From positions 1 through 64,000 of the forward strand of contig NZ_VMDU01000012.1 in NCBI RefSeq assembly GCF_008271465.1: a DNA stretch of 64,000 bases, read 5' to 3'. A program made the position numbers and the translations under genes. This document shows, in pieces, positions 11,288-47,241 of this stretch (positions are counted from its first letter, which is position 1; every line of letters begins with the position of its first letter). The notes under the pieces were generated by a model. That model was not told the origin of the DNA. It did no database searches and worked only from the letters and a program-made list of their open reading frames with translations. The DNA comes from Tabrizicola flagellatus (GTDB taxonomy: Bacteria > Pseudomonadota > Alphaproteobacteria > Rhodobacterales > Rhodobacteraceae).

Positions 11288-11655
11288 CAGAGCACCTCCG
11301 GAGCCAGCGAGATGATCTTCATGAAGTTCTTGGCCCGCAGCTCGCGCACGACCGGCCCGAAGATACGGGTGCCGACCGGTTCGCCCTGGTTGTTCAGGAT
11401 GACGGCGGCATTGCGGTCGAAACGGATCGAGGTGCCGTCTTCACGGCGGACTTCCTTGGCGGTGCGGACGACGACGGCCTTGCGGACGTCCCCCTTCTTC
11501 ACGCGGCCCTTCGGAATCGCCTCCTTGACCGACACCACGATGATGTCGCCCACGGAAGCATAACGGCGGTGCGAACCGCCAAGAACCTTGATGCACTGCA
11601 CCCGGCGTGCGCCGGAGTTGTCAGCGACATCCAGATTCGTCTGCATCTGGATCAT
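11287..11655 (-). CDS. rplN: 50S ribosomal protein L14
   Basis: A 122-residue inter-subunit bridge protein, the standard length. The start [19 protein letters not shown] and the pattern [20 protein letters not shown] are as in the family. It lies 58 nt after rpsQ and overlaps rplX by one base. Confidence 0.99.
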
Positions 11656-11713
11656 TTTTCAGTCTCCCGACCTTCAGGGACGCGCCCTGGGGTTTCGTTC
11701 GGGACCGAGGAGA

Positions 11714-11953
11714 TCAAGCCGAAGCTTCGGTCACCACGGTCCAGCGTTTCGTCTTCGAGATCGGGGCGCATTCCTCGATGCGGACCACGTCGCCGACCTT
11801 GAACTTGTTCTCCGGGTCATGCGCCCGGTATTTCTTCGACTTGCGAACGGTCTTCTGCAGCAGCGGGTGCTTGAAGCGACGTTCCACGAGAACGGTGATC
11901 GTCTGCTCGTTCTTGTCCGAGGTGACGACGCCTTGCAGGATGCGTTTCGGCAT
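11714..11953 (-). CDS. rpsQ: 30S ribosomal protein S17
   Basis: A 79-residue OB-fold primary binder of 16S rRNA, with [20 protein letters not shown] near the start and the [20 protein letters not shown] segment. It lies 11 nt after rpmC. Confidence 0.98.
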
Positions 11954-11964
11954 GTGTGTTCCCC

Positions 11965-12165
11965 TTACTTCGCAGCTTCAGCGGCTTTTTGGCCGAGAAC
12001 GGTCTTGATGCGGGCGACGTCACGGCGGACGGCACGCATGCGGGCGGTGTTCTCAAGCTGGTTGGTCGCTTGCTGGAAGCGCAGGTTGAAGGCTTCCTTC
12101 TTCAGCTGGACCAGGCTGTCACGCAGCTGGTCCGGCGTCTTCGAACGCAGTTCTTCGGCTTTCAT
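11965..12165 (-). CDS. rpmC: 50S ribosomal protein L29
   Basis: A 66-residue two-helix protein at the tunnel exit, with [20 protein letters not shown] at the start. In most bacteria rpmC directly follows rplP. Here 1.4 kb with two other genes, a terminator and REP palindromes intervene, and rpmC has its own promoter candidate (12279-12307). It therefore heads the rpmC-to-rpmD unit. Confidence 0.98.
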
Positions 12166-12278
12166 GCCGGTCTTTCCTTTTCACAATCGCCAGTCGGCCC
12201 CTTCTCAGGGTCACCGAGGACCTGGCGGATCAATGACAAACCGCCGACGCCGAGTCACCCCGGAATCGCGGATGCGCC

Positions 12279-12307
12279 CGTATAGGGGGGAAGGCGACGG
12301 GGGGCAA
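12279..12307 (-). promoter_or_regulatory. Promoter candidate for the rpmC-rpmD unit
   Basis: On the minus strand, TTGCCC (12302-12307), a 17-bp C-rich spacer and TATACG (12279-12284), about 115 nt upstream of rpmC. It uses the same TATACG hexamer and C-run before the -10 as the rpsL promoter candidate at 23723-23751. Confidence 0.65.
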
Positions 12308-12327
12308 GGGGGAAGTTGCGGGGCAGG

Positions 12328-12546
12328 TCAGGCCTTGTTTGCCAGCGTGTCACTGATCTCGGCAGCGATCCCAAAGCCCACACCAACCAAGATGCCCATC
12401 GGCGAGCTTTTTGCCAATCCCAAGAAGAGCGGGTCCCAGTTCGATACACTGCCACCAAAGGCAGCTACTTGGAAAGCAACATAGGCAATTATGCTCGGCA
12501 CAAAGAGCAACCAGGCAACTACAAAACCAGCCTTAGTAAAGAACAA
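12328..12546 (-). CDS. Small membrane protein of unknown function inside the ribosomal cluster
   Basis: A short hydrophobic protein I do not recognise. From a TTG at 12544-12546 it has 72 residues: a membrane span (AGFVVAWLLFVPSIIAYVAF), a short polar loop, and a second hydrophobic stretch (MGILVGVGFGIAAEI). TTG is chosen because AAGGAG lies 7 nt before it. ATGs at 12552 (site too close) and 12624 (no site) are alternatives, the latter giving 98 residues. The DNA is visibly AT-richer than its neighbours, suggesting acquisition by transfer. It lies between the oxygenase-like gene and the rpmC promoter, and a REP pair (12636-12686) sits just upstream. Confidence 0.6.
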   Translation of the reverse strand: MFFTKAGFVVAWLLFVPSIIAYVAFQVAAFGGSVSNWDPLFLGLAKSSPMGILVGVGFGIAAEISDTLANKA

Positions 12547-12635
12547 TTCCATACTCCTTATGGTGCGGCCAAGCAGCCTACCAATCCACATCTTGATCAG
12601 CGACTGCCGCATGACGCCGAACATAGGACGAAATC

Positions 12636-12686
12636 GTAGGGTGCGCTGCAGCGCACCAGCGGACGGTGCGCTGCAGCGCGCCCTAC
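12636..12686. repeat. Paired GTAG-REP palindromes in head-to-head arrangement
   Basis: Two 22-nt units (12636-12657 and 12665-12686), nearly perfect inverted copies of each other around a 7-nt spacer. The left unit starts GTAG, the right ends CTAC, and each contains the 8-2-8 palindrome built on GGTGCGCT. This is the layout of a BIME (paired REP element). It lies between the small membrane gene and the oxygenase gene. Confidence 0.75.
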
Positions 12687-12695
12687 GATGCCGCC

Positions 12696-13319
12696 TTACA
12701 CCCAGCCATAGTTGAAGCTGACCGAGATCCGTTCTTCCTCGGACATGTTCATCGGCACCTCGTGGCGCAGCCAGCTTTCCCAAAGGAGAACCTCGCCCAC
12801 CGCCGGTTTGACGTAGACGAACCGCTGCAGCTCTTGAGGCGCGGTTTTCAAAGGCACGGGGGCCAGCATCATCATCGGGAGGCGGGGGTCTTCCAACTTC
12901 AGCGCCGAGGTCCCCTCCGGCATCGCGACATAGGTCGTGCCCGAGATCACCGAATGCGGGTGGATGTGGCTGGCGTGGGTGCCGCCCTCGGGCAGGATGT
13001 TGATCCAGAGGGAGTTGCACTTCAGCTTCCGGGCGCCCAGGTCGAAGCCGAGGTCCTGGCAGAACGCGGCGACGTGGCGGTCCAGCGCCTTTTCCAGATC
13101 GCCGAAGATCGGCATCCGCCAGGGCAGGTCGTTCAGCGAGGCATAGGAGGTGTAGCCCGGATAACCGTTCGCCTCGCACCACGCCTGCCCGGCCTCGTCA
13201 TCCTCGGCGATGGTTTCGCAGGTGACGCGGAGTTCGTCGTAGTCGACCTTCTTCCTGGCGAGCTCGTTCAGCTTGGCGCGGTAGAGGCGGGTGACGAAGA
13301 GGGAGGTGATGTCGGGCAT
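12696..13319 (-). CDS. TIGR02466-type putative 2OG-Fe(II) oxygenase
   Basis: A 207-residue protein resembling the TIGR02466/2OG-FeII_Oxy_5 family, putative 2-oxoglutarate- and iron-dependent hydroxylases of unknown substrate. Visible features are a histidine-rich segment HASHIHPHSVISGTTYV (His115, His118, His120, His122; candidate metal ligands), LLWESWLRHEVPMN with His186, and Arg197 in RISVSFNYGW, which could bind the 2-oxoglutarate carboxylate. It is inserted between rplP and rpmC. A possible own promoter (TTGCAA, 16 bp, TAGGGC; 13350-13377) lies upstream. No good ribosome site directly precedes the ATG; GGAGGAGA is about 20 nt away. A ribosomal substrate is only an inference from position. 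Confidence 0.8.
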   Translation of the reverse strand: MPDITSLFVTRLYRAKLNELARKKVDYDELRVTCETIAEDDEAGQAWCEANGYPGYTSYASLNDLPWRMPIFGDLEKALDRHVAAFCQDLGFDLGARKLKCNSLWINILPEGGTHASHIHPHSVISGTTYVAMPEGTSALKLEDPRLPMMMLAPVPLKTAPQELQRFVYVKPAVGEVLLWESWLRHEVPMNMSEEERISVSFNYGWV

Positions 13320-13452
13320 AGTGCGCGTCCACGGAAGATGTCTCCTCCTGCCCTACCAGTCCTGCGAGCCGTTGCAAAGCTGACCGCGACCGGCACGCGG
13401 GGGGTGGGAGCGACACTGTCGCGCCCGCCCCCGGGGGGCGGGTCGGGCGCGG

Positions 13453-13477
13453 TCAGATTTGCTTTGGGCAAATCTGA
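13453..13477. repeat. Perfect 10-bp palindrome downstream of rplP
   Basis: TCAGATTTGC (13453-13462) and GCAAATCTGA (13468-13477) around TTTGG. It follows the rplP terminator in the direction of transcription and looks like an inserted intergenic palindrome. Confidence 0.55.
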
Positions 13478-13482
13478 CGACG

Positions 13483-13511
13483 AAAAAGCCCCCGCCGTTT
13501 CCAGCAGGGGC
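13483..13511 (-). terminator. Rho-independent terminator after rplP
   Basis: On the minus strand the stem GCCCCTGC/GCGGGGGC (13504-13511 with 13488-13495, one G-U pair) is followed directly by five T (13483-13487). It lies 33 nt past the L16 stop and separates the rplB-rplP unit from the genes toward rpmC. Confidence 0.85.
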
Positions 13512-13543
13512 CGATGTCGCAGGTCGGGTTCACCCCCCGTCGC

Positions 13544-13957
13544 TTACCAGTCTTCCTTCGCGACGACGCGGGTCTTGATCGGCAGCTTCATCGCGCCAAG
13601 GCGCAGGGCCTCGCGCGCGATCTCGTCGTTCACGCCGTCGATCTCGAACATGATCCGGCCCGGCTTGACCTTGCAGGCCCAGTAGTCGGTCGAACCCTTG
13701 CCCGAGCCCATGCGGACCTCGACGGGCTTCGCGGAAACCGGAACGTCCGGGAAAATCCGGATCCAGACCCGGCCCTGGCGCTTCATGTGGCGGGTGATCG
13801 CGCGGCGGGCCGCTTCGATCTGCCGCGCGGTGACGCGCTCGGGCTCGGTCGCCTTGAGGGCGTAGGAGCCGAAGTTGATCAGGAACCCACCCTTGGCTTC
13901 GCCATGGATGCGGCCCTTGTGCATCTTGCGATACTTGGTGCGCTTGGGTTGCAGCAT
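13544..13957 (-). CDS. rplP: 50S ribosomal protein L16
   Basis: A 137-residue protein contacting the peptidyl-transferase centre and A-site tRNA, of standard length. The loop [16 protein letters not shown] contains Arg82, aligning with E. coli Arg81, which is hydroxylated there by the 2OG oxygenase YcfD/RoxA. It follows rpsC by 13 nt and is the last gene before a strong terminator. Confidence 0.99.
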
Positions 13958-13970
13958 CTTCGTTTACTCC

Positions 13971-14687
13971 TCAGGCGCGTTCGCGGTCGCGGCGCGGACC
14001 CCGGGGGGCCGGGCCGTCAGCCGCTTCGGCAAGACGACGATCATGGGCCTGCGGATCATGCTCAAGGATCTCGCCCTTGAAGATCCAGACCTTCACACCG
14101 ATGATCCCGTAGGGGGTCTCGGCTTCCGACAGCGCATAGTCGATGTCGGCGCGCAACGTGTGCAGCGGCACGCGGCCTTCGCGGTACCATTCGGTCCGGG
14201 CGATCTCGGCGCCGCCGAGGCGGCCCGAAACGTTGACCCGGATGCCGAGCGCACCCATCCGCATCGCGTTCTGCACGCCGCGCTTCATCGCGCGACGGAA
14301 GGAGACGCGGCGTTCCATCTGCTGGGCGATCGATTCGGCCACCAGCTGGGCGTCCAGTTCCGGCTTGCGGACCTCGACGATGTTCAGGTGCAGCTCCGAC
14401 TTGGTGAACTGCGAGAGCTTCTTGCGCAGTGTCTCGATGTCGGCGCCCTTCTTGCCGATGATCACGCCCGGACGCGCGGTGTGGATGGTCACACGGCACT
14501 TCTTGTGCGGACGCTCGATGATCACGCGGCTGATGCCGGCGGCCTTCAGCTCCTTGTGGATGAACTCGCGCATGCGGAGGTCTTCCAGCAGCAGGTCGCC
14601 ATAGTCCTTCGACCCGGCGAACCAGCGGCTGTCCCAGGTGCGGTTGACCTGGAGGCGCATCCCGATCGGGTTAACCTTCTGTCCCAT
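13971..14687 (-). CDS. rpsC: 30S ribosomal protein S3
   Basis: A 238-residue mRNA-entry-channel protein. The KH domain with [20 protein letters not shown] sequence (seen as [18 protein letters not shown]) and the C-terminal domain are intact, with a basic tail. Its ATG overlaps the rplV stop codon by one base. It precedes rplP by 13 nt. Confidence 0.99.
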
Positions 14688-16192: not shown

Positions 16193-16308
16193 GTTTCCTG
16201 TCTTCCGTTTGCTTGCACGGGTGTCGCCACCCGGCGGTGAAGGGCTCCGAAGATCCCCGATTTAGTGTCCTTTCCTCCTGCGGCTGCATCGGGAACGAAC
16301 AAACCAAG

Positions 16309-16330
16309 AGCCCCGGACGAATCCGGGGCT
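16309..16330. terminator. Perfect 9-bp hairpin in the rplB leader
   Basis: AGCCCCGGA (16309-16317) and TCCGGGGCT (16322-16330) around CGAA. It lies 15 nt downstream of the rplB -10 on the minus strand, so it would be in the 5' leader of that message, about 117 nt before the start codon. No long U-run follows. It may act as a leader structure (attenuator) or mRNA stabiliser. Confidence 0.5.
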
Positions 16331-16344
16331 TCTGGCGTGGCGCG

Positions 16345-16373
16345 GGATTAGCAGACGGGGGTGGGGGTGGCAA
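16345..16373 (-). promoter_or_regulatory. Promoter candidate for rplB-rpsS-rplV-rpsC-rplP
   Basis: On the minus strand, TTGCCA (16368-16373), a 17-bp C-rich spacer and TAATCC (16345-16350). It lies about 150 nt upstream of rplB, between rplB and the divergent plus-strand gene. Confidence 0.6.
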
Positions 16374-16478
16374 TGGGGGCCTATGCGATTTCTTCAGCAA
16401 ACGGAAGCTTGTTGGCACGCAGGTGCCGACGTAGCATCGCGTGGAAATCTATTGAAGAATGTCGCCTTGGAGGCGTCC

Positions 16479-17048
16479 ATGCAAAGAGCTAAGCCACTCT
16501 GCCTTTCTGCATTTCTCACGCTTGCCGCCGCTGGAGCTGGACACGGAGAAGAGTCGTCGGTTTCGCCCCTCACGGGAATGGCACTCGACAACTTTTACGG
16601 AGCTTGCCTGAATGAAGGTTTTTCTCTCAGCGTCGCAGTTCCGTTCATCGACAATCTCGACTGGGAAGAGGTCGACGACGTCACTATGAAACCCTTGGCT
16701 CCCGAGGGAGAGATGGCGTTTCTAAAGGGATGGGTAGCTTCGGACCCAACGAAAGAGAACCCGCTTCCATTCATTCTGATCTTGGGCCGTCCCAAGGATC
16801 GCTGGATGGAAACTGAATCCTGCACCATCTACTTTAAGGGCGTAAGCGCTGAGGAGTTTGCATCGGCCTTCATTTCCGAAACCAGTGCTGTCGAAGTCGA
16901 CTCAGAAACGCGATTGGCGGAGATCTATCGCAGCTTCACTTTGCCCGACAACCCAGACGTCCTCGCTTCGCTCCACTACAGCACTCGTGCCGGTGCGGAT
17001 CAGATCGTTGTATCGGCGATGCACATGAACCAGCCACCCTTCCCGTGA
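16479..17048 (+). CDS. Secreted protein of unknown function, inserted against the S10 operon
   Basis: A 189-residue protein I do not recognise. The ATG at 16479 is chosen because GGAGG lies 5 nt before it and it gives a clear Sec signal peptide: a basic start (MQRAK), hydrophobic core (LCLSAFLTLAAAGAG) and a likely cut near HGEE. An upstream frame from 16383 lacks these. The mature part is acidic, with two cysteines (FYGACLNEGF and ESCTIYF) that could pair. It is the only plus-strand gene within the ribosomal cluster, and its base composition is lower in GC than its neighbours, both signs of insertion. Its stop is 62 nt from the rplW terminator that faces it. Confidence 0.75.
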   Translation: MQRAKPLCLSAFLTLAAAGAGHGEESSVSPLTGMALDNFYGACLNEGFSLSVAVPFIDNLDWEEVDDVTMKPLAPEGEMAFLKGWVASDPTKENPLPFILILGRPKDRWMETESCTIYFKGVSAEEFASAFISETSAVEVDSETRLAEIYRSFTLPDNPDVLASLHYSTRAGADQIVVSAMHMNQPPFP

Positions 17049-17100
17049 AGAGTGTGATGAGATGGCCCGGCAACCTATCAACTTTCCCAGTACACCGTCC

Positions 17101-17134
17101 CAAACAGAAAAGCCCCCGCCTTCCGGCAGGGGCT
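17101..17134 (-). terminator. Rho-independent terminator after rplW
   Basis: On the minus strand, AGCCCCTGCC (17125-17134) pairs with GGCGGGGGCT (17111-17120; one wobble) around GGAA, followed by TTTCTGTTTG. It lies 25 nt past the L23 stop and ends the rpsL-to-rplW unit. The stem is very close in sequence to the terminator after rplP (13483-13511). Confidence 0.85.
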
Positions 17135-17158
17135 CTCTCAGTTCACTCAGGCCGAAGC

Positions 17159-46581: not shown

Positions 46582-47241
46582 ATGATGCTGGTGATCCAGG
46601 GGCTGATCCCGCCGGCCGAGGCGGCAGTCCTGCGCGAGGCGGCGCGCGAGCTTGACTTTGCCGACGGAAAGGCCACGGCCGGCCGCTTTGCGCGCGAGGT
46701 CAAGGCCAATGATCAGGCCGCCCCCTCGCCCGAGCGGGAGGCGATCTTTGCCCGGGTCGAGCGGGCCCTGCGGGAGAACGGCCTGTTCCGCTCGGCGGCC
46801 CGGCCGCGCGCGATCAGTCCGCTGATCCTGTCGCGCTACCGCGAGGGCCAGACCTACGGGCTGCACGTCGATGATGCGGTGATGGGGGGGCTGCGGACCG
46901 ACCTTTCCTTCACGTTGTTCCTGTGCGATCCGGCAAGCTACGTCGGCGGCGCCCTCGTCATCGAGGACACGCTGGAGACGCGCGCGATCCGGCCAGGGGC
47001 CGGCGATCTGATCCTCTATCCCTCGACCACGCTGCATCGGGTCGAGCCGGTGACGCGGGGCGAACGTTTGGCGGTGGTGGGCTGGGTGCAAAGCCAGATC
47101 CGCCGGGCTGACCAGCGCGAGATCCTGTTCGACCTGGATCAGGCGGTCGAGGCCGCCCATGCCCGGGAGGGCAAGAGCGGGCAGTTCGACCGGCTGGCCA
47201 AGACCCGGGCCAATCTCATCCGGATGTGGGCAGAGACCTGA
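46582..47241 (+). CDS. piuC: PiuC/YbiX-type Fe(II)/2-oxoglutarate-dependent hydroxylase
   Basis: A 219-residue PKHD-type hydroxylase. The iron ligands are readable as His95, Asp97 (LHVDDA) and His152 (LHRVEPVTRGERL), with Arg162 for 2-oxoglutarate. The family is typically iron-regulated and found beside TonB-dependent siderophore receptors; its substrate is not firmly known. It starts 3 nt after the secreted protein's stop, so the two are coupled. It converges on parC with only 3 nt between stop codons. Confidence 0.92.
   Translation: MMLVIQGLIPPAEAAVLREAARELDFADGKATAGRFAREVKANDQAAPSPEREAIFARVERALRENGLFRSAARPRAISPLILSRYREGQTYGLHVDDAVMGGLRTDLSFTLFLCDPASYVGGALVIEDTLETRAIRPGAGDLILYPSTTLHRVEPVTRGERLAVVGWVQSQIRRADQREILFDLDQAVEAAHAREGKSGQFDRLAKTRANLIRMWAET

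Follow-up and report, generated by a model that had tools for sequence, protein, structure and literature searches.

The DNA analysed here, hereafter the window, is a stretch of 64,000 nucleotides from Tabrizicola flagellatus, on the minus strand of which rpsC, rplP, an oxygenase-like gene, a small ORF, rpmC, rpsQ and rplN follow one another in this order. The oxygenase-like gene (12696-13319, minus strand) encodes a protein of 207 aa, which matches TIGR02466 from position 2 to 201 of the 201 positions of the model (E 2.2e-80, 269.2 bits against a cut-off of 62.5) as well as PF13759 (2OG-FeII_Oxy_5; E 3.9e-35, 120.7 bits against a cut-off of 27). As the first-pass annotation of this DNA proposed, it is the next gene downstream of rplP on the same strand; rplP itself (13544-13957, minus strand) encodes an L16 of 137 aa. 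To call the gene immediately downstream, however, goes too far, as a spacer of 224 bp with a terminator-like hairpin lies between the two, and the range of 12328-13957 assigned to the oxygenase contains, besides the gene, rplP, a 74-aa ORF and spacer sequence. A replacement of rpmC by the gene had to be discarded because rpmC (L29) is present at 11965-12165 on the minus strand, at the downstream end of a gap of about 1.4 kb between rplP and rpmC.

The gap also holds the small ORF, a membrane-type frame of 74 aa (12328-12552, minus strand) with no match above any Pfam or NCBIfam cut-off; position 12328 also terminates an unrelated frame of 284 aa. This ORF appears to be sporadic gap cargo, being found in 2 of the 196 genomes of the order, that of T. 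flagellatus included, and a relative with 48% identity sits in the gap of locus L048. In frame 5' of it, at 12565-12609 on the minus strand, RQSLIKMWIGRLLGR resembles the C-terminus of an antitoxin-like ORF, RQSLIKMWIAEKLG, which lies beside a BrnT-like ORF in the gap of locus L039 and which we take to be BrnA; RQSLIKMWIGRLLGR is likely a remnant of toxin-antitoxin cargo. Two imperfect inverted repeats flank the ends of the oxygenase gene, namely a palindrome with two 34-nt arms at its 3' end (12624-12698) and a second repeat at 13374-13462, and these could aid inversion of the gene.

Relatives of the gene were sampled as the best 80 of at least 574 (one genome per species, 71-96% identity), together with a further 60 loci picked by hand, non-randomly, from a 196-genome survey of the order. 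Three gene pairs common to both samples were removed for the count of 137 distinct copies and kept in the gap-cargo, ribosomal-tree, terminator and junction counts. As nearly all loci were selected for carrying the oxygenase gene, its presence in the gap and junction counts is partly selected; its frequency is therefore taken from the order survey and its location from the 137 distinct copies. The co-occurrence of TIGR02466 with rplP, a survey of which had been suggested in the first-pass annotation, was borne out in the Rhodobacteraceae, where, of 137 distinct copies examined, the rplP-rpmC gap contains 116, another 16 adjoin the single flank that was detected and 5 have neither flank detected. 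Two of these five (L068, L095) are near the end of their locus and the others (L087, L258, L261) have at least about 5 kb to either side; about 10 of the 16 one-flank copies have some 5 kb or more opposite without a second flank, which indicates a wider gap there or a broken cluster. The TIGR02466 family is present in 165 of the 196 genomes of the order. A survey of the genus found a close copy to be absent from 15 of 32 genomes, but rplP was also missing in 9 of the 10 of these that were tested, so the absences are probably assembly gaps. The location of the gene between rplP and rpmC is old, well kept and not a matter of chance.

An intrinsic-terminator-like hairpin of 11 pairs with a U-rich tail lies 3' of rplP, at 13512-13487 on the minus strand. 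It has the longest stem of four such sites in 11900-14000, where shuffles average 1.9 sites, and the segment 13460-13543 has a fold z-score of -2.7. Using a custom script, a terminator-like hairpin was found within 150 nt 3' of rplP in 118 of 148 family loci, against a rate of 0.3% in the mononucleotide shuffles that served as control, and it occurs where the gene runs in the same direction (67/82), where it is inverted (36/45) and where it is absent (15/21). No such hairpin follows rplP at any of 20 outgroup loci, which come from alphaproteobacteria of other families that carry a relative of the gene. This difference between the family and the outgroups suggests, as far as sequence can tell, that in the family the S10 cluster forms two transcription units, with the gene at the split, and, because the hairpin parts rplP from the gene, their adjacency does not mean co-transcription. 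Among the 116 in-gap copies, 74 run in the direction of the ribosomal genes and 42 are opposed; the hairpin and the inversions argue against co-transcription with the S10 operon and rule out operon membership as the default reading. A sigma-70-like promoter scan of 11900-14000 found 0 sites (0.2 expected), and an Rfam scan of 11600-14100 gave no match.

On a FastTree phylogeny of the ribosomal proteins (144 loci, the three duplicates included) the orientation of the gene changes 16 times, and well-supported branches alone force at least 8 changes for the inverted label. The oxygenase gene's own tree gives 15 changes, and there well-supported branches force only 2. Distances between copies of the gene and between the ribosomal proteins correlate at 0.65 over 121 loci, the highest of 500 permutations reaching 0.12, which points to a gene that has been inherited mostly vertically and turned round in place.

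Two of the 14 junctions tested along S10-spc are open. The rplP-rpmC junction exceeds 300 bp in 125 of 135 gaps, and in 7 of the 17 gaps without the gene, while rplW-rplB does so in 56 of 87 loci; the remaining 12 junctions yielded one gap above 300 bp in total. Complete rplP-rpmC gaps measure 863-7205 bp where the gene is present and 110-1183 bp in the 17 that lack it. No other ORF family is found in more than 9 of the 135 rplP-rpmC gaps, and none in more than 4 of the 87 rplW-rplB gaps. The rplP-rpmC gap showed no constant occupant besides the oxygenase gene, most loci having been chosen for carrying it. As rplW-rplB is open and has no constant occupant, openness alone does not lock a gene in, and since the oxygenase gene is kept in most genomes, unlike the other gap cargo, something must hold it. 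The rplW-rplB junction, the family's other open site, lies at 16193-17158 in the window; its cargo across the loci included no constant occupant.

A survey of the class found a match in 93 of 241 genomes, 60 of them above cut-off, in a draw that includes four genomes of the family itself. All 20 relatives sampled from other families (29-67% identity, from genomes among the best-scoring outside the family) sit away from S10: 15 S10/spc genes were tested and none was found within the 13-18 kb around them, and the rplP-rpmC spacing of the outgroups is -1 to 74 bp. According to the first-pass annotation, neighbourhoods that tie the family to another pathway would speak against a ribosomal role, and the outgroup loci showed no shared pathway. 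Besides the gene and its antisense frames, clustering of the ORFs from the 20 loci gave two clusters found in 6 loci each, named from sequence as ABC-type ATPases and HisC-like aminotransferases, and other clusters found in 3 loci each (L168, L173 and L174, of one family; or L167, L173 and L174). A scan of 30 neighbouring ORFs, hand-picked from 107 at 15 of the 20 loci with five near-duplicate loci left out, assigned a Pfam family at E 1e-6 to 22, and no ribosomal protein family is among these 22. TauE and ABC_tran recur, at two loci each. The neighbours are varied: some are urease, phosphatase, transport or purine genes, others encode a YchF-type GTPase or an ABC ATPase. On the clustering and the 30-ORF scan, a common pathway at the outgroup loci was rejected. 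The YchF-type GTPase adjoins the relative at L176, and the ABC ATPase (Pfam ABC_tran), presumably ABC-F/EttA-like, is near that at L177; these neighbours may touch translation, two cases in the 15 loci scanned.

The AlphaFold2 model of the protein (pLDDT 82, pTM 0.82) adopts a double-stranded beta-helix fold, and the named PDB matches are 2OG enzymes. Its nearest structures are 3bvc from Roseovarius nubinhibens and 2rg4 from Oceanicola granulosus, both uncharacterised and 66-70% identical; they represent TIGR02466/PF13759, which the protein matches at full length and above cut-off and from which no difference was found. The next fold matches are PHD2, HygX and a P. putida P4H, the latter also in its EF-Tu complex, with SnoN and PolD listed too. 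Foldseek gave E of about 1e-6 to 1e-7 and TM-scores of about 0.5-0.64 against PHD2 and the P. putida P4H. The EF-Tu prolyl hydroxylase of P. putida (4iw3, 4j25) and human PHD2 thus share the fold group, at about 10-15% identity, and a profile search of solved structures returned, beyond 3bvc and 2rg4, just weak matches with E 0.23 and above. The distal His and the Arg follow in a similar order in these hydroxylases and in the oxygenase protein.

In a 31-row alignment the residues W105, N107, H118, H120, S126, G127, Y130, H186, V188, R197, S199, S201, F202 and N203 are invariant, and in a 157-row alignment H120, H186 and R197 are each present in 157/157 rows and H118 and S199 in 156/157. The codons of H118-I119-H120 lie at 12960-12968, those of H186, the predicted distal iron ligand, at 12762-12764 and those of R197-I198-S199, an RxS motif with a predicted role in holding the 2OG carboxylate, at 12723-12731, all on the minus strand. 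The order H118-x-H120...H186...R197-x-S199 parallels the HxD...H...R of 2OG oxygenases except that His takes the place of Asp, the equivalence of H120 to Asp/Glu being judged by eye, and hhalign of the 31-row alignment against a seven-row PF13640 alignment gave no alignment at HxH. While PHD2 and the P. putida P4H have the known site HX(D/E), the canonical HX(D/E)...H facial triad is replaced here by HxH, both in the 31-row alignment and in 80/80 viral relatives; the Arg for the 2OG carboxylate is found in RxS at the level of sequence only.

Among phages, the protein matches the phrog_81 profile (E 2.8e-32) and 257 phage records, of which the 30 listed are 24-32% identical and nearly all come from marine cyanobacterial phages. 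With these cyanophage 2OG-Fe(II) oxygenases it has the order HxH...H...RxS in common, a motif found in 80/80 relatives on viral contigs at identities down to 21%. Part of the viral loci was retrieved with the patterns R[IV]S[VI]SFNY and [LM][WF]ESWLRH, which hold R197, S199 and H186, so those residues are partly selected and HxH is not. HxH is also present in all 8 divergent bacterial relatives, of 10, in which an HxH-or-HxD pattern matched. In three of these eight (L367, L368, L369) PF13759 stands behind tetratricopeptide repeats, and such fusions are hints of protein substrates elsewhere in the PF13759 family. By far the closest viral match is a full-length relative, 63% identical, which an IMG/VR contig of 67 kb carries close to its end (L264:5001-5615), possibly a provirus edge or host DNA. 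No substrate of the cyanophage phrog_81 enzymes was found in print.

The reading that we prefer, at a probability of roughly 60%, is that of a metal enzyme of the PHD/P4H fold whose site consists of three histidines and whose gene is kept in a permissive gap. The gene product would be a double-stranded beta-helix enzyme, small and stand-alone, from the PHD/P4H fold group, with a predicted iron site made up of His118, His120 and His186 (HxH...H), with Arg197 and Ser199 placed for 2-oxoglutarate binding, and with side-chain hydroxylation of a protein or peptide as its most likely reaction. The S10 cluster may have been split after rplP by a terminator in an ancestor of the Rhodobacteraceae, the gene lodging in the break as a transcription unit with a putative promoter of its own and being inherited there mostly vertically, with many flips, while other cargo would have been transient. 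The location would then represent a permissive site between two transcription units instead of membership of the ribosomal operon, and the role of the enzyme would probably be a non-ribosomal one. Several observations count against this. The scan of 11900-14000 found 0 promoter sites where an own promoter is predicted, well-supported branches of the gene tree force only the 2 orientation changes, EF-Tu is the target of the bacterial protein hydroxylase whose fold comes nearest, and the constant place would also be explicable by a link to translation. As for a protein substrate, the small-molecule enzymes HygX, SnoN and PolD rank beside the EF-Tu hydroxylase and so speak against it.

A link to translation is what the first-pass annotation had in mind when it read the protein as a ribosomal oxygenase. 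In its broader form, a translational oxygenase of a new family would act on a ribosomal protein or a translation factor, for which EF-Tu switch I and uS12 are the structural precedents, and proximity to S10 would be kept for the target or for co-regulation. The presence of 116 of 137 copies inside the gap as its sole constant cargo fits this, as do PHD2 and the P. putida EF-Tu hydroxylase as the nearest protein-hydroxylase folds, and the YcfD family was found neither in the T. flagellatus genome nor in 178 of 195 further genomes searched in the order. Co-location and the rarity of YcfD stand, but the positional support for a ribosomal oxygenase is largely lost to the terminator between rplP and the gene, the 42/116 inverted copies, the 20/20 outgroup relatives away from S10 and the other cargo: for a gene that looks separately transcribed and is often inverted, place alone is no proof of action on the ribosome. 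In addition, the surroundings of L16 Arg82 are alike with and without the gene, and the papers found on TIGR02466/PF13759 name no substrate. We regard a translational target as unlikely. We give very little credence to the narrower idea that the protein functionally replaces YcfD and hydroxylates L16 at Arg82 (Arg81 in E. coli). The first-pass annotation rightly placed Arg82 in VRMGSGKG and rightly held that the oxygenase is not a YcfD homologue. YcfD/RoxA, the L16 Arg81 hydroxylase of E. coli, has a PF08007 domain, whereas the 207-aa oxygenase protein has no PF08007 (JmjC_2) match, nor does a JmjC ROX enzyme appear among the 50 listed of the 1630 structural matches; both proteins presumably fall within the wide 2OG/cupin-type fold. 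The domains given for YcfD in PMC4295552 are DSBH, dimerisation and winged-helix. A replacement would suit a conserved Arg82, an adjoining rplP and a YcfD family that is mostly not found, yet the expected absence of YcfD holds for the T. flagellatus genome and becomes rarity in the order, where PF08007 occurs in 17 of 196 genomes (16 above cut-off). All 17 carry TIGR02466 too, so neither family takes the other's place. The segment xEVRMG(S/K)GKG with Arg82 is found in 168/168 aligned L16 sequences (127 with the gene, 21 without and 20 outgroups), and its presence therefore says nothing and was dropped as evidence.

The metal site raises a different alternative, namely that the protein is not a 2OG hydroxylase and that its three histidines serve other oxygen chemistry or metal binding only, perhaps with a small-molecule substrate. 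Thiol dioxygenases have such a three-histidine site and other oxygen chemistry. The published site of the 2OG class is defined as HX(D/E)...H in a review (PMC4543633), and three-His nonheme iron enzymes such as EgtB are known (PMC13426267). HxH takes the place of HxD/E in the 80/80 viral relatives, the 31-row alignment and the 8 divergent bacterial relatives. Nevertheless, RxS, the expected holder of the 2OG carboxylate, is kept alongside HxH and the fold neighbours among the matches listed are 2OG enzymes, which makes this alternative improbable. A combined reading, in which the family consists of protein hydroxylases with a three-histidine iron site, and its Rhodobacteraceae representative stays at the S10 split because its target is a ribosomal protein or an elongation factor, seems quite improbable. 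The open-licence papers found name no function for TIGR02466/PF13759 or for 2RG4/3BVC, and the available parts of PMC10598087, PMC4508852 and PMC3532365 give none for the family. Within the same open-licence literature no printed link of such a gene to the S10 cluster in Rhodobacter was found, and a search on alphaproteobacterial ribosomal hydroxylation yielded nothing useful.

If HxH...H binds iron and 2OG, PF13759, with members in bacteria and cyanophages, would break the HX(D/E)...H rule of recognition, and two PF13759 crystal structures are already deposited. If translation were the target of the Rhodobacteraceae protein, the bacterial translational hydroxylases, among them YcfD and the Pseudomonas enzyme that hydroxylates EF-Tu, a translation factor (both described in PMC4682802), would gain a further member. 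Should neither hold, the break after rplP still presents a single constant gene at a site of variable cargo within a highly conserved cluster, and is a warning against inferring function from position there. The window contains a second 2OG-type oxygenase gene at 46582-47241 on the plus strand, a PF13640 member of 219 aa with an ordinary HVD motif, which we take to be PiuC/YbiX-like.
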